Virus record (IMG/VR): IMGVR_UViG_3300042691_024377
Location: 1-26,989 of that record
Length of the DNA stretch: 26,989 nucleotides
From: a virus
Strand: one strand, 5' to 3'
The notes under the pieces are model-generated. The model searched no databases and had not been told where the DNA came from. It saw only the letters and a list, made by a program, of their open reading frames with translations. Within the stretch, counting starts at the first letter, position 1, and each line of letters starts with the position of its first letter. Below are positions 3,357 through 26,838 of the stretch, piece by piece. Both the position numbers and the translations under genes were made by a program.

Positions 3357-4559
3357 TCAGAAATAATGTGTTAAATGGCTTATTCTTCCATGTTCCTTTG
3401 AGTGTATAAAGCCCTCTACTGCTACCATATTTAAGAATCCATTGTCAGCGTGCCATATATCGGCTGAACTTGGACTGCGAAGATAAGTAATATTTACTCC
3501 TACATAATCTTTACTTGATTGAAACTGTTTTTTATCTTGGTGGTGTACGTGGTGCAGATAGCCATATCTAAACTTGGTTTCATACCACATCTTAGGGTTT
3601 GATTGAGCATAAATTAGCGGTAAATCCATTGCCTTACCCTTATCTCCATGCTCTAAATTAATCATATTGTTAAAATACCGATAACACTTTCTATATGATG
3701 GGCTTATGTCAAATGTGATATTTTTGCAGTCTTTAAAATAGGTGCTAACAACTTCTGCCAAAAAACAGCCACTCATAAAGTCGTGATTTGATGGGCAATG
3801 GATTACATCTACATCTGCAACTGATAAACACAGTTCAATACACTCTACATAGCACTTCTTAGCTATCATAAAGGCTTCATACCAACTTACATCTGTATCT
3901 TGCGGTGTTTGCTTTGTTGTTGAATGGGTTAAGTTGTCAGTGTTTAGCACATCGTTTCCTATTACAAAGATTATTTTATCAATATGGAATCCGCTTGATT
4001 TTTGCAGTAATCCCTTTGTGCCTAATACTGCTCTTTCAACCGCTAACTTACTATTGTATTCTGCGCCAGTTAATTCTGATGTCGCGTATTTATTAATGTG
4101 AAGGTCGGCAATATCTATTACTAATAAATGTCCATCTTCTTGAAATTCTCTCTTTATCTTTGGGAACTTAGGCACATACTCTTGAATGTCTTTTAGTAGT
4201 GCGACCTTAAAATCTACTTCTTCTTTTGGCTCGGGCTTTCTGTAATCGGGATTGCTTGCAAATACATTTCCTCGTTTTTTACCATTTTCGTCTTTAACTT
4301 CAAGCCATAAGTGCCTTGCTGAATTTAATGGTATATCTATATCGTCACAGGCTTTTGCTATCCCCTCATGTTCGTCTAATATCCTCTTGTGATGCCTCGC
4401 TATAAATCGCCTAAACCCTAATACTGTTGTATCTTCATTCCTCTTTGCCTTTGTCTTTAATATCTTAGATACTATCTGGGCGTAGGTAAATCCTTGTCGT
4501 AGCAATGCAGCCACTTCGGAATCATATTTATAATAATCAATCTGTGCTTGTTTAGACAT
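3357..4559 (-). CDS. calcineurin-like metallophosphoesterase
   Basis: Encodes 400 aa. The N-terminal 60 residues look like a helix-turn-helix segment (LLRQGFTYAQIVSKIL). The catalytic half then carries the metallophosphoesterase motifs in order: D-L-H at 152-154, GND at 201-203, NHD at 258-260, and EHGD at 303-306, the ligands of a two-metal centre. The family hydrolyses phosphodiesters or phosphomonoesters, and this HTH-plus-phosphoesterase form recurs in Bacteroidota phages, where a nucleic-acid substrate is likely. It is the first gene of the minus-strand operon; a TACATTTG box on the minus strand lies at 4580-4587. The 69 bases downstream repeat TTGTGGTTTTGTGGTTAGTG, a word also found near the cassette sites. 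Confidence 0.85.
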   Translation of the reverse strand: MSKQAQIDYYKYDSEVAALLRQGFTYAQIVSKILKTKAKRNEDTTVLGFRRFIARHHKRILDEHEGIAKACDDIDIPLNSARHLWLEVKDENGKKRGNVFASNPDYRKPEPKEEVDFKVALLKDIQEYVPKFPKIKREFQEDGHLLVIDIADLHINKYATSELTGAEYNSKLAVERAVLGTKGLLQKSSGFHIDKIIFVIGNDVLNTDNLTHSTTKQTPQDTDVSWYEAFMIAKKCYVECIELCLSVADVDVIHCPSNHDFMSGCFLAEVVSTYFKDCKNITFDISPSYRKCYRYFNNMINLEHGDKGKAMDLPLIYAQSNPKMWYETKFRYGYLHHVHHQDKKQFQSSKDYVGVNITYLRSPSSADIWHADNGFLNMVAVEGFIHSKEHGRISHLTHYF

Positions 4560-4634: not shown

Positions 4635-4696
4635 TTTAGATTGAGTAAAAATAATAAAGATTTATTTTTTTATTCCAAATATTGTTTTTAGATTTG
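4635..4696 (+). promoter_or_regulatory. plus-strand promoter with operator-like box (HNH/replication operon)
   Basis: TAGATTTG at 4689-4696 matches TAnnTTTG. A T-rich -33 position lies 20 bases upstream. TTTAGATTGAGTAAAAA at 4635-4651 matches 12 of 16 positions of the palindromic box seen in front of other operons (TTTAGAATnATTCTAAA) and lies one base from the expected distance. Transcription would start near 4700, exactly where the first helix of the leader RNA begins. Confidence 0.5.
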
Positions 4697-4699
4697 TGG

Positions 4700-4830
4700 C
4701 GGCTAAAAAATATAAGCATTAATGAAATCATTAAATAATAACATTCAATAAATCCTTGTAAGGGGTGATGTATCTTTTGTGCTTCCGCACACTTGCATAT
4801 ATGTTTTAGCCGACAGCACCCCTTACAAGG
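4700..4830 (+). promoter_or_regulatory. structured RNA leader A (pseudoknot) of the first HNH gene
   Basis: Two interleaved helices are visible. Helix a pairs CGGCTAAAA (4700-4708) with TTTTAGCCG (4804-4812). Helix b pairs CCTTGTAAGGGGTG (4754-4767) with CACCCCTTACAAGG (4817-4830), 14 perfect pairs. The order a-b-a'-b' is a pseudoknot. Smaller hairpins lie inside: TTAATG/CATTAA (4719-4734) and TGTGC-TTCC-GCACA (4778-4791). A 9-codon upstream ORF (4722-4751) ends two bases before helix b. Helix b closes 9 bases before the ATG at 4840. The same topology precedes the other two HNH genes. Confidence 0.65.
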
Positions 4831-4839
4831 TATTTATAC

Positions 4840-5265
4840 ATGGAAAATAAAACCTACGCTGAAAAGCTAAAAGACCCACGCTGGCAAAAGAAAAGATTAG
4901 AGATATTTCAACGCGACCAATTCCGATGTATGGAATGTTTCTCTGATGAAAAGTCACTCCAAGTGCATCACATAGCATATAAAGGGAAAAACCCGTGGGA
5001 TACTCCAAATGAACTACTTATTACTTATTGCTATGAATGCCATCAAAAAGAGGAAGATAAATTAAAAGCGGCAGGCGAAACTTTTGTTAAGTTAATGAGA
5101 GCCGATGGACAAAGAAGTATAGAGATAGAATACTTTTTATCAAACCTGCAATTATTGGCAAAAAAAGGATTGCCACATAAATTAGTTGGTTTTCTATCGT
5201 TGGTTATGACAGATGAAAAATTAATTAAGTACATAACTAAGTACATAACTAAAAACATTGATTAG
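4840..5265 (+). CDS. HNH endonuclease (zinc-binding type)
   Basis: Encodes 141 aa. The motif set is C30-x-x-C33, H43-H44 in LQVHHIAY, N58, and C64-x-x-C67-H68, which is the classical zinc-stabilised HNH nuclease; the preceding RWQKKRLEIFQRDQFRC is also typical. The domain fills residues 10-75; a helical tail follows and ends in a repeated KYITKYITK encoded by a 12-base direct repeat. It is a metal-dependent DNA nicking or cutting enzyme, probably a free-standing homing-type or phage recombination nuclease. It belongs to a different HNH group from the NUMOD4 proteins at 13.7 and 26.3 kb, yet shares the leader topology. It overlaps no gene; the replication genes begin one base after its stop. 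Confidence 0.85.
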   Translation: MENKTYAEKLKDPRWQKKRLEIFQRDQFRCMECFSDEKSLQVHHIAYKGKNPWDTPNELLITYCYECHQKEEDKLKAAGETFVKLMRADGQRSIEIEYFLSNLQLLAKKGLPHKLVGFLSLVMTDEKLIKYITKYITKNID

Positions 5266-11112: not shown

Positions 11113-11292
11113 ATGAGCCTAAAACACGAACAATACAACTCTTTAAAGTACACCCAAGACTTCCTTTATGACCTTTTAGACCCCAAGAAGCGACCTAAGA
11201 CACAAAAGGAAATGAAAGACAGGGTAAGAAGATGTTTAAGGCATTACCCTTTTTTGGATGGAAAAGGTAAGCCTTTATTCTCAAAACACTAA
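11113..11292 (+). CDS. conserved small phage protein
   Basis: Encodes 59 aa. The pattern FLYDLLDPKKRPKT, a basic R-V-R-R-C-L-R-H-Y-P-F-L segment, and a G-K-P-L-F-S end recurs in small uncharacterised phage proteins known to me. Strongly basic and helical, so nucleic-acid contact is plausible. It is located 2 bases after the membrane peptide and 4 bases before the PP-loop gene. Function unknown. Confidence 0.65.
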   Translation: MSLKHEQYNSLKYTQDFLYDLLDPKKRPKTQKEMKDRVRRCLRHYPFLDGKGKPLFSKH

Positions 11293-11296
11293 AAAT

Positions 11297-12106
11297 ATGA
11301 TAACAATAAATAGTTTAAGCGGAGGAAAGACAAGTTCGTACTTAGCAAAGCATTACCCTGCTGACTATAACCTATTTGCACTGGTGAAAATAGATGATGT
11401 TAAATGCGCTCCAAAGGATAAGAGCCTTATACAAATTGTTTCTGATAAGATAGGAGAAGATTTTATTGCAACTGCGGAGAGCGATTTAACACTAAAAGCA
11501 GTACTTGACTTAGAACAGTTAATAGGCAAGGAAATTATTTGGGTACATGGATTGTCTTTTGAAAAGATGATGAAAAAGAAAAGTGCTATGCCTAATATGG
11601 AGTGGAGATTTTGTACTACTGAATTAAAGATGCGACCTATATGGGATTGGTGGTTTAAAAATATCAATGAAAAGGTAAAAATGGGAATAGGATTCAGATA
11701 TGACGAAAAGGAAAGGGCTGACAAATTCTCAACCACTTTTAAAGGAATAATAGGCAGGTCTAAAAATGATAAAAGGAATAAGTGGGGAGAAATAGAATGG
11801 AGAGAAGGGTATTTTCCATTGATTGAAGATAAAACTACTCACTTACAAGTAAGACAATGGGCTGATTCAACAAACTTAACATTCCCATTAGATTCTAACT
11901 GTGTAGGTTGCTTTTGGAAGCCATTACAACAACTACGTAAGAATTGGGATTTAGAAACAGATAAGATGCAGTGGTTTTCAGACCAAGAGAAGAAAGCCCA
12001 ATGGAAAAAAGAAGCCTCATACGCTCAAATAAAAACTATTGGACTGCAACAAGAGTTTAACTTTGGCACAGGAAGCGGATGCCAAGCAGGATATTGTACT
12101 GACTAA
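11297..12106 (+). CDS. PP-loop ATPase / PAPS-reductase-like phage protein (operon copy)
   Basis: Encodes 269 aa from ATG 11297. SGGKTS is at residues 8-13, exactly as in the gene at 638-1543, and later motifs run in parallel: EIIWVHG, RFCTTELKMRP, IWDWWF, MGIGFRYDE, NCVGCFWK and the C-terminal C-x-x-G-x-C. The two are clear paralogues, this one about 30 residues shorter. The PP-loop binds ATP or an adenylylated substrate; the cysteine sets suggest a metal site. The phage family is widespread but its substrate is not established; roles in thiolation or base modification are guesses. A start at 11258 would overlap the 59-aa gene and misplace the PP-loop, so I reject it. Confidence 0.85.
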   Translation: MITINSLSGGKTSSYLAKHYPADYNLFALVKIDDVKCAPKDKSLIQIVSDKIGEDFIATAESDLTLKAVLDLEQLIGKEIIWVHGLSFEKMMKKKSAMPNMEWRFCTTELKMRPIWDWWFKNINEKVKMGIGFRYDEKERADKFSTTFKGIIGRSKNDKRNKWGEIEWREGYFPLIEDKTTHLQVRQWADSTNLTFPLDSNCVGCFWKPLQQLRKNWDLETDKMQWFSDQEKKAQWKKEASYAQIKTIGLQQEFNFGTGSGCQAGYCTD

Positions 12107-13067: not shown

Positions 13068-13511
13068 ATGAAAATAACAGAAAATGTAACATTATACAAG
13101 TGCGACTACTGCAAAAAGAAACTTTTTAGAAAAGGCGCAATGACAAGGCATGAAGAAACGTGCTTAAACAACCCCAAGAATCACAAAGCCTGCTTTAACT
13201 GTATATTCTTAGAGCAAACAGAACAACAGGTAGCATGGGGTCACGAAAGTCCTTTCACAGAGATGGGAGAAAAGAAAGTATTAGTATTTAAGTGCGCTAA
13301 ACTTTCTAAAACAATGTTTCCATACTCAATAGAAAGAAAGAAACTGCATGAAAGATTTGACACCTATATCGACCAAGAGCCAATGCCACACACTTGTGAA
13401 AGCATGAAAAAAATGACAGCAAACGAGCAAATAGACAGAATGATAAACGGAATACCTCTTGATGCAGAAAGTGTAATTGATAATATAAACAAAGATTTCT
13501 TTCCTAATTAA
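13068..13511 (+). CDS. zinc-finger protein
   Basis: Encodes 147 aa. The first 35 residues hold a C2H2/C2HC-like finger: C-D-Y-C-K-K-K-L-F spaced before R-H-E-E-T-C. A second cysteine group (ACFNCIF, then FKCAKL and HTCESM) suggests a further metal site. Such fingers may bind DNA, RNA or protein. It is the last gene before the second HNH unit, whose promoter overlaps its stop codon. No closer family recognised. Confidence 0.7.
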   Translation: MKITENVTLYKCDYCKKKLFRKGAMTRHEETCLNNPKNHKACFNCIFLEQTEQQVAWGHESPFTEMGEKKVLVFKCAKLSKTMFPYSIERKKLHERFDTYIDQEPMPHTCESMKKMTANEQIDRMINGIPLDAESVIDNINKDFFPN

Positions 13512-13559
13512 GAATTAATCTAAATAACTTGCATATTAAAAACACAGTTCCTATATTTG
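13508..13559 (+). promoter_or_regulatory. promoter of the second HNH unit
   Basis: TTG (13529-13531), 20 bases, TATATTTG (13552-13559): a full Bacteroidota promoter. TTAAGAATTAATCTAAA at 13508-13524 matches the palindromic box at 15 of 16 positions but is only 4 bases from the -33 box instead of 13, nearly one helical turn closer. Helix a of the leader RNA begins at 13564, at the expected transcription start. Confidence 0.65.
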
Positions 13560-13563
13560 TTCC

Positions 13564-13667
13564 GCTTATTCAACTAAACAAATGAACCTAAAAACAAAAT
13601 CCCGCTACTTCACATCGCCAAATACTACTTCCGTAGAACTGTTGGATAAGCCTTTGTGGATAGCGGG
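13564..13667 (+). promoter_or_regulatory. structured RNA leader B (pseudoknot) of the second HNH gene
   Basis: Helix a: GCTTATTCAAC (13564-13574) with GTTGGATAAGC (13641-13651), 11 pairs including one T-G wobble. Helix b: CCCGCTA (13601-13607) with TAGCGGG (13661-13667), with an inner CACA/TGTG extension (13611-13614, 13655-13658). Between b and a' is the hairpin CTAC-TTCC-GTAG (13625-13636). An upstream ORF starts at 13582. Helix b ends 10 bases before ATG 13678. The homologous leader at 26212 keeps the fold with compensatory changes. Confidence 0.75.
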
Positions 13668-13677
13668 TAATATTTTT

Positions 13678-14181
13678 ATGGAACACTATCAAAACTTATC
13701 ATTAACAGACATTGAAGGAGAGGTGTGGCTGCCTATAAACGGTCACAATGGTTTTATATCTAACTTCGGGAGGGTAAAACTACCACCATACATTACAAAG
13801 TTTGGCATTTTAAGATACCCAGAGAGAATAAAGAAACAGCAATCGCTAAACGGGTATAAATCAGTAGGCATTGGACATAAAAGAACACATTTAGTTCACA
13901 GGCTTGTAGCCCAAGCATTTATCCATAATCCAAATAATTTACCACAAGTAAATCATAAAAACTTCATTAGACATGACAACCATGTAGAAAACCTTGAATG
14001 GTGTACCGCAGATGATAATAGACTTCATGCTGTATTAGGTGGAAAAGCTACATTATCTTTAAAAACAGCGAAAAAGAATACAACCACAGAGCCGCCAAAA
14101 TTCAATATTACTTATGTTTATTTAGACAATGGAGAGTTCTACCAAAAGCATAATAACTTTGCAGAAGTAAAGAGGCAATAG
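13678..14181 (+). CDS. NUMOD4-HNH homing-type endonuclease (frameshifted)
   Basis: Encodes 167 aa in this frame. Residues 14-60 form a NUMOD4-like DNA-binding motif (GEVWLPINGHNGFISNFGRV). The HNH core follows: THLVHRLVAQAFI, then VNHKNFIRHDNHVENLEWCT with N92-H93-K94, and N-R-L-H-A-V. These are hallmarks of free-standing phage homing endonucleases, which cut DNA at target sites. I place the start at 13678, because it aligns with the protein at 26323 and lies 10 bases after the leader hairpin; the in-frame ATG at 13582 is the start of the upstream ORF. Frame 1 stops at 14181, but the protein clearly continues in frame 0 (see next entry), so a one-base shift interrupts it. Confidence 0.8.
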   Translation: MEHYQNLSLTDIEGEVWLPINGHNGFISNFGRVKLPPYITKFGILRYPERIKKQQSLNGYKSVGIGHKRTHLVHRLVAQAFIHNPNNLPQVNHKNFIRHDNHVENLEWCTADDNRLHAVLGGKATLSLKTAKKNTTTEPPKFNITYVYLDNGEFYQKHNNFAEVKRQ

Positions 14182-26175: not shown

Positions 26176-26207
26176 TTTGCTAATTAAAAAAATAATTCCT
26201 ATATTTG
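26176..26207 (+). promoter_or_regulatory. promoter of the third HNH unit
   Basis: TTTG (26176-26179), 20 bases, TATATTTG (26200-26207), identical in the -7 box and spacing to the promoter at 13529-13559. The context TTCCTATATTTG is shared by both. No palindromic box is recognisable upstream. Helix a of the leader begins 5 bases after the -7 box. Confidence 0.65.
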
Positions 26208-26211
26208 CAAC

Positions 26212-26312
26212 GCTTAATCGTTTACAAAATGAAATTTAAAAAATCCCGTAGTTATACATTGTCCTCTACAACCTAAATGGGTTGGGCGGTTAAGCCTTTG
26301 TGTTTCTACGGG
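26212..26312 (+). promoter_or_regulatory. structured RNA leader C (pseudoknot) of the third HNH gene
   Basis: Helix a: GCTTAATCG (26212-26220) with CGGTTAAGC (26287-26295), one T-G wobble at the same place as in leader B. Helix b: CCCGTAG (26245-26251) with CTACGGG (26306-26312). A small hairpin, CAACC/GGTTG (26269-26273, 26280-26284), lies between. Helix b ends 10 bases before ATG 26323. Shared words with leader B include CGCTTA, AAATCCCG and TAAGCCTTTGTG; paired positions that differ do so in both arms. Confidence 0.75.
26229..26276 (+). CDS. upstream ORF in leader C (15 codons)
   Basis: ATG 26229 to TAA 26274-26276 encodes MKFKKSRSYTLSSTT. The leader B frame at 13582 starts with MNLKTKSRYFTSPNTT, so K-S-R-x-(Y/F)-T-x-S-x-x-T-T is shared, and the frame covers the 5' arm of helix b in both. 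It may be a leader peptide whose translation alters the RNA fold. Conservation may also be due to the RNA itself. Confidence 0.4.
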   Translation: MKFKKSRSYTLSSTT

Positions 26313-26322
26313 TATTTTTATA

Positions 26323-26838
26323 ATGGAAAATCAAGAAATAATATGGAAAGATGTTGTCGGGTATGAAGGTGTTTACAAAATAAGTAGTTGCGGAAAGTTA
26401 AAAAGAATTTACAAAACTAAAAAAGATTCTATTCTTAAATGTTCTATAAACCAAAGCGGATACGTATGCGCACGAATAAGAATTAATGGAGGTTTTAAAA
26501 ATATTAAAGTTCACAGGCTTGTTTGTATTGCTTTTTTAGAAAATCCATTAAACAAACCTCATGTTAACCATAAAAACGGTATTAAAACAGATAACAGACT
26601 TGAGAATTTAGAGTGGGTTACTCCTTTAGAAAACAACACACACGCATTAGAAACAGGATTAGTTCAAAAAATAGGAGAGAAACATTCGAGTGCTAAATTA
26701 ACAACCGAGCAAGTTTTAAAAATAAGGGAGTTATCATCACAAGGCATAAGCGGAGGTAAAATAGCAAAAATAATAGGAATTGTAGGCAGGAATCATATTA
26801 ATGATATAATCAAAAGAAAAAAATGGAGACACATTTAA
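26323..26838 (+). CDS. NUMOD4-HNH homing-type endonuclease
   Basis: Encodes 171 aa. Residues 6-30 are a NUMOD4 motif (IIWKDVVGYEGVYKISSCGK). The HNH core follows: KVHRLVCIAFL, then H80-V-N82-H83-K and DNRLENLEWVT, then N-N-T-H-A-L. The C-terminal 50 residues contain a resolvase-like helix-turn-helix (LTTEQVLKIRELSSQGISGG) for target recognition. It is intact, unlike its paralogue at 13678, and lacks the NUMOD1 repeats of that protein. It would cut DNA near its own insertion site to spread. Its start is fixed by the leader hairpin 10 bases upstream. Confidence 0.85.
   Translation: MENQEIIWKDVVGYEGVYKISSCGKLKRIYKTKKDSILKCSINQSGYVCARIRINGGFKNIKVHRLVCIAFLENPLNKPHVNHKNGIKTDNRLENLEWVTPLENNTHALETGLVQKIGEKHSSAKLTTEQVLKIRELSSQGISGGKIAKIIGIVGRNHINDIIKRKKWRHI

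Follow-up and report, generated by a model that had tools for sequence, protein, structure and literature searches.

Introduction

The mRNA leaders of T4 gene 32 and of S15 contain pseudoknots that are bound by the encoded protein and have a translational role. Structured RNA in front of phage endonuclease genes is known from T4-type homing endonucleases (I-TevI, segB and mobE), where hairpins hide the ribosome site, and from seg43(25), where the base of the stem lies just upstream of the RBS (PMC2988022). Paired 5' ends stabilise bacterial mRNA, and both RppH and RNase E need single-stranded 5' ends, as seen in data from E. coli and B. subtilis (PMC3997798). Bacteroidota do without Shine-Dalgarno use. 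In F. johnsoniae, 4–5 nt separate the -7 box from the transcription start, the mRNA between -20 and +20 usually lacks structure, and initiation is aided by A at -3, -6, -12 and -13 (PMC6847099).

The stretch analysed here, called the window, is a 26,989-base IMG/VR virus record. An earlier note had described two pseudoknotted RNA leaders in it as being under selection for their fold, and had proposed that they control endonuclease translation or form an RNA component of the mobile unit. The element is apparently an RNA family not described before, with a single architecture in two sequence classes. As judged from the sequence comparisons, it is best read, with a probability of roughly 0.55, as an mRNA leader that acts in cis in Bacteroidota phages and forms a portable cassette of promoter, pseudoknot and start codon with a sealed 5' end and a gated start.

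Three leaders in the window

In leader 1, all parts of which lie on the plus strand, the -7 promoter box TATATTTG (TAnnTTTG) at 13552–13559 stands exactly 4 nt before helix a, whose first base (13564) is the predicted transcription start. Helix a pairs 13564–13574 with 13641–13651 (GCTTATTCAAC/GTTGGATAAGC; 11 pairs, one of them U-G), and helix b, interleaved with it, pairs 13601–13607 with 13661–13667 (CCCGCTA/TAGCGGG) and ends 10 nt before the ATG at 13678. The linker contains an upstream AUG (ATGAAC, 13582–13584), which here shares the frame of the HNH gene. Within the loop of helix b lie the 5' arm of an inner helix (CACA, 13611–13614, pairing with TGTG at 13655–13658), an unpaired conserved core at 13615–13619 (UCGCC here and UUGCC in most leaders) and hairpin c (CTAC-TTCC-GTAG, 13625–13636). 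Leader 2, also on the plus strand, has the box TATATTTG at 26200–26207 with TTTG upstream at 26176–26179, a helix a of 26212–26221 with 26286–26295 (26212 being the predicted start), a helix b of 26245–26251 with 26306–26312, and at 26255–26263 the inner helix arm UACA, pairing with UGUG at 26299–26302, together with the core UUGUC. Re-inspection of the sequence and a topology scan placed both leaders and their interleaved helices where the earlier note had them, and the arm differences between the two compensate as it claimed; the wobble that it saw at the same place is a feature of the majority type and is not general (helix a column 6 or 7). When folded as nested structures without the pseudoknot, leader 1 gave a z of -2.37 and leader 2 a z of -4.22 against shuffles.

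The NUMOD4/HNH_3-like gene behind leader 1 (13678–14181, plus strand) has its frame broken near 14165–14180, through a sequencing error, decay or a programmed shift. The other frame runs on to 14555 with a NUMOD1-like tail (EAIGISGDTIKKHL...). Behind leader 2, a NUMOD4-HNH_3 endonuclease gene begins with the ATG at 26323 (26323–26838, plus strand). The flanking gene at 13068–13511 had too few relatives for an empty-site comparison. Elsewhere in the window, two related genes with an SGGKTS motif lie on opposite strands (638–1618, minus; 11258–12106, plus) and look like members of the PAPS-reductase/DndC-type nucleotide-binding family.

The topology scan covered the whole window, both strands and every ATG, and sought a helix b ending 6–17 nt before the ATG together with a helix a whose upstream strand pairs within the loop of helix b. 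Of its four best matches, three (scores 29.0, 21.8 and 21.7) were leaders of HNH genes (4840, 13678 and 26323); these are all the HNH genes that were found in the window, and each has a leader of this kind in front. The fourth (17954, score 21.3) was all-AT with no promoter and was judged to be chance. Any topology match of at least 21.5 was seen in 8 of 60 dinucleotide shuffles, and three such matches in none of the 60. By topology alone leaders 1 and 2 are only modestly unusual, and the proof comes from homology.

The earlier note, correct for its two leaders, had overlooked the third one at 4700–4830 as well as the inner CACA/TGTG helix, the loop hairpin and the unpaired core (UUGCC, CUU). 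In this third leader (plus strand) the -7 box TAGATTTG at 4689–4696 is a relaxed match, with G replacing H. Helix a pairs CGGCTAAAA at 4700–4708 with 4804–4812, helix b pairs CCTTGTAAGGGGTG at 4754–4767 with 4817–4830 in 14 pairs and ends 9 nt before the ATG at 4840, and hairpin c (TGTGC-TTCC-GCACA) occupies 4778–4791. The UUGCC/CUU core is absent, and the order of parts is that of leaders 1 and 2, with AAATCC opening helix b and TAGATTTG upstream. The HNH gene behind it (PF01844, 4840–5265, plus strand) is a relative of the HNH gene behind the leader of contig L176. In three relatives whose HNH genes are 74–84% identical to this one (L268–L270), both helices were kept and helix a showed compensatory changes. 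Across these and the third leader, 92 of 92 cells were paired with no mismatch and 9 of the 23 pairs were doubly changed, for example CCTTGTAAGGGGT/ACCCCTTACAAGG against CCTTACAGAGGGC/GCCCTCTGTAAGG. There are thus at least two sequence classes built on one plan. L271 was rejected as a member, having a plain terminator-like hairpin.

Relatives and covariation

A protein search with the second NUMOD4 HNH gene (26323) gave contigs in which a few leaders could be recognised by eye. The pattern AAATCCC..CATYGYC..GCCTTTGTG derived from these leaders matched 85 viral contig stretches (58 of them distinct), nearly all with the whole fold. The covariance model R1, built from 12 of the pattern-found leaders with no window sequence, returned leaders 1 and 2 as its two best matches on the window (34 and 32 bits; E 3e-6 and 1e-5). 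R1 further matched L047, L048, L121, L066, L176, L198 and a second copy in L160, and L239 is a second leader copy within the L198 contig. An R2 search of 395 Bacteroidia genomes gave a single true member, L242, which adjoins a terminase large subunit gene and presumably lies in a prophage. The pattern scan of bacterial genomes gave 17 matches and no real member, BLASTN against cultured phages gave no match, and the 43 matches of the exact pattern AAGCCTTTGTG..CGGGTA were all unrelated coding sequence. In Rfam 15, leaders 1 and 2 had no match up to E 1, the relatives had none to this element, and leader 3 had chance-level long-hairpin matches only, 30–200 bits below the cut-off. No pseudoknot leader of this kind was found in the open-licence papers searched.

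Other RNAs were seen in these contigs. The aquatic-lineage phage contig L174 has an Rfam DUF805b RNA at 1492–1524 (41.6 bits, above gathering), and in several contigs the same GGGGTAGCCGAAAACC..GTAGGC leader stands behind the IWK gene. In L176, the minus strand of 13454–13520 matched the Twister-P3 ribozyme with 34.9 bits against a gathering score of 39.9.

The element is a pseudoknotted 5' UTR of roughly 90–130 nt with a common order. From the 5' side, TAnnTTTG is followed after 4 nt by the 5' arm of helix a (about 10 bp), an A-rich linker (about 17–27 nt long in the main class, 45 nt in the third leader), the 5' arm of helix b (7–11 bp in the main class), the arm of the inner helix (4 bp), UUGCC, hairpin c, the 3' arm of helix a, CUU, the 3' arms of the inner helix and of helix b, 7–12 U-rich nt and the start codon. 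Helix a and the inner helix are 3 nt apart, and the latter occurs as CACA/UGUG, UACA/UGUA, UGCA/UGCA, CGCA/UGCG and GGUA/UACC.

Covariation was measured in alignment A6, in which 18 divergent leaders were condensed to helix and core positions with registers set by anchors, and by hand for L176 (one-base bulge) and L239. In this alignment 98.8% of 432 cells pair, compared with 73% if shuffled and 33–45% if slid by 1–3 columns. The share of paired cells is biased upward, since pairing guided the choice of registers, but this choice does not explain how varied the pair types are, with four of them at several helix a positions. Twenty of the 24 pairs were changed on both sides, giving 99 compensatory cells against 22.7 in shuffles (0 of 500 as high), and covariation was found in every helix, including the inner one (helix 3 of A6). 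Selection on the fold, as the earlier note argued, is thus supported by the covariation in A6 and in L268–L270.

Promoter, start codon and upstream AUG

Both ends of the fold lie at fixed distances from expression signals. The -7 box TAnnTTTG was found in 51 of 55 leaders, and its spacing to helix a was exactly 4 nt in 50 of the 55. Among the five exceptions, one is truncated at the contig end, three keep the 4 nt with a box shorter by one base, and the fifth is the third window leader, where the distance is 3 nt by the same count. In about 41 of the 55, TTTG lies 19–20 nt upstream, as in Bacteroidota sigma-ABfr promoters. Given this spacing and that of F. johnsoniae transcription starts (PMC6847099), the first RNA base should be the first base of helix a, which agrees with the start proposed in the earlier note. 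The first pair of helix a is G-C throughout the 18 leaders of A6. On the 3' side, 59 of 65 distinct leaders have 10–12 nt between the last G of helix b and the start codon; the spacing counts at both ends come mostly from one closely related set of aquatic phage contigs, and the divergent leaders agree. Such tight spacing to the start codon makes a role in expression of the downstream gene, one of the two roles raised by the earlier note, the best reading.

An ATG, followed by RAA or similar, is present in the linker of nearly all members and is lacking in L239, L136 and the unrelated L107/L240 types. Its frame is open through the core in every lineage, with the frame itself varying, and in about 40% of divergent cases neither of the other two frames is open; in the third leader the frame of the ATG ends before helix b. 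A conserved leader peptide was ruled out, because the frame of this ATG relative to the core differs between lineages.

The upstream reading frame, and the U-rich run that comes after a strong stem in many leaders (GGGTATTTTT, GGGTGTTTTTT and AGGTATTTTTTT), would also fit a transcription attenuator, in which helix b and the U-rich run form a terminator before the start codon that is switched by helix a or by translation of the upstream frame. We consider this unlikely, as the U run is broken in the commonest type and in the third type (TATTTAGT and TATTTATA), the loop of helix b measures about 40 nt, the sites were not called by a terminator scan, and both helices can coexist, no exclusive terminator/antiterminator pair being seen. 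The fixed distance to the start codon across many unrelated genes, in a phylum without Shine-Dalgarno use (PMC6847099), could instead point to a ribosome-recruiting element, whose pseudoknot would bind 30S in place of the Shine-Dalgarno contact and give strong, context-independent initiation. This is at least as doubtful as attenuation, for the conserved unpaired core is only about 8 nt and differs in the second sequence class. For the preferred cis-acting leader, the placement of helix b is informative in another way: it covers about -11 to -22, a region that is normally open in F. johnsoniae messages and that lies within the part needed open for initiation in this phylum, and position -3 is mostly U and not A, which suggests a weak or gated start.

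Genes behind the leader

In members outside the aquatic lineage, various makes of HNH endonuclease are encoded behind the leader. NUMOD4-HNH_3 genes follow the leaders of L047, L048 and two of the window (13678 and 26323), HNH_3 that of L121, HNH_3 with an AP2-like domain those of L198 and L239, and PF01844 HNH those of L242 and window position 4840; the L176 gene is a relative of the last type uncalled by Pfam (52% over 69 aa). L047 and L121 were found via HNH proteins and are not independent evidence for the HNH association, whereas L048, L176, L198, L239 and L242 were found, or refound, by RNA searches. A replication-like gene lies behind L240, which is a weak model match but has clear helices. 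In aquatic-lineage contigs the leader is followed by DUF1376-like, DUF6291, DUF4326, GIY-YIG, SNF2-methylase and small unknown genes, and L160 has two leaders in tandem with a gene of its own behind each. The same RNA before many unrelated genes argues for action on the transcript and not on one protein. The element is not the partner of one protein family, and its association with HNH genes is real and not exclusive.

More than eight unrelated first genes stand behind one leader sequence in the aquatic-lineage contigs (L127–L211), and the conserved leader may serve there as a homologous recombination site for gene swapping. Two further pseudoknot arrangements were observed. L107 has a separate type at about 135–226, 1175–1264 and 3430–3519 (GAGCGTAGCA/TGCTACGCTC with CTAAAGGT/ACCTTTGGAG), two of which precede NUMOD4 HNH genes and one a third start; a search with its pattern found no further members, and since this type has a GGAG Shine-Dalgarno-like site it probably does not belong to a Bacteroidota phage. 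L249 has at about 120–220 helices of 15 bp and 7–11 bp in the same interleaved order before a NUMOD3/DUF7487 endonuclease-like gene.

As the element starts at the promoter and often heads gene blocks, it might be a phage-operon leader that acts in antitermination or timing via a phage factor, like the HK022 put RNA; this is quite improbable, because a fixed start codon distance would then be needless and the pseudoknot architecture is unlike put. Least probable is an RNA partner of the nuclease or mobile unit (omega-RNA-like), or an autoregulation target of the encoded protein: although an HNH gene stands behind all three window leaders and, with one exception, behind the divergent leaders that RNA searches alone had found, and the other pseudoknot type of L107 also precedes HNH genes, the same core is found before non-nuclease genes, and the HNH proteins are of several unrelated architectures with no RuvC and no guide position in the RNA.

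Discussion

The cis-acting mRNA leader remains the reading that we favour, a covarying fold having been found between promoter and start codon. With transcription beginning at the first nucleotide of helix a, the triphosphate-bearing 5' nucleotide would already be base-paired, and the 5' end would adjoin the helix junction, where the sole conserved unpaired bases (UUGCC and CUU) are located. Helix a and the inner helix being only 3 nt apart, the 5' end would be placed at this junction, which would explain the conservation of these bases. A flush paired 5' end may block pyrophosphate removal and 5'-end-dependent decay, a process better known from E. coli and B. subtilis than from Bacteroidota. 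On the 3' side, helix b would keep initiation at the AUG of the gene itself low as long as the fold stays closed; the simplest way to open it would be for a ribosome to begin at the upstream AUG and translate into helix b. The arrangement of the reading frames is suggestive of such opening; against it stand L239 and L136, in which the upstream AUG is missing, and the third leader, in which the frame stops before helix b.

It is a tentative further step to regard the element as a new phage RNA class, in which start site, sealed 5' end, pseudoknot and ribosome entry region form one portable module that would give captured genes stable, context-independent and switchable translation. A module common to unrelated genes offers a direct handle on phage translation control in Bacteroidota, and it extends the idea that phage homing endonucleases bring their own expression control. 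Should the sealed 5' end prove true, genetic work in Bacteroides and Flavobacterium would also gain from the leader a translation switch or mRNA stabiliser that is ready for use.

Among the known systems, an HDV-like ribozyme, which would have interleaved P1/P2 with a J1/2 of 1–4 nt, P1.1, P4 and a catalytic C, was rejected: the linker measures about 17–27 nt (45 nt in the third leader), 3 nt separate helix a from the inner helix, and Rfam gave no match. HEARO, or the omega RNA of IscB, resembles the present element as an RNA joined upstream to an HNH-domain gene. The earlier note had cited it as a precedent for an RNA component of the mobile unit and had itself pointed out that the proteins have no RuvC domain; Pfam bears out the latter, giving NUMOD4, HNH_3, HNH and AP2 only, and no RuvC-HNH IscB-type protein. 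The analogy itself is not supported, since unrelated genes lie behind the same RNA, the predicted start at the first base of helix a leaves no room for a 5' guide, and Rfam, which includes HEARO, gave no match. The leaders are also at most about half the size of HEARO and are not nuclease-specific.

The T4 gene 32 and S15 leaders are alike in having a pseudoknot in the mRNA leader, but the genes served here share no protein family. In 5'-terminal stem-loops of the ompA and papA type the 5' end is likewise paired from the first nucleotides; here, in contrast, the partner of the 5' strand lies inside the loop of a second helix, the structure reaches the start codon, and the members form a covarying family. 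T4-type endonuclease genes share RNA structure just before the start and promoters of their own. Their structures are simple hairpins over the Shine-Dalgarno, which are absent from late transcripts via an internal promoter. In the present leaders, by contrast, the RBS does not lie inside a stem, the stem ending 7–12 nt before the AUG in nearly all, and TAnnTTTG stands upstream of the whole fold, not at an internal position that would omit the 5' arm; the fold is a pseudoknot without Shine-Dalgarno, and unrelated genes are served. The broad kind, a structured mRNA leader, is thus known, and the architecture appears unusual in that it begins at the predicted transcript start and ends shortly upstream of the start codon.
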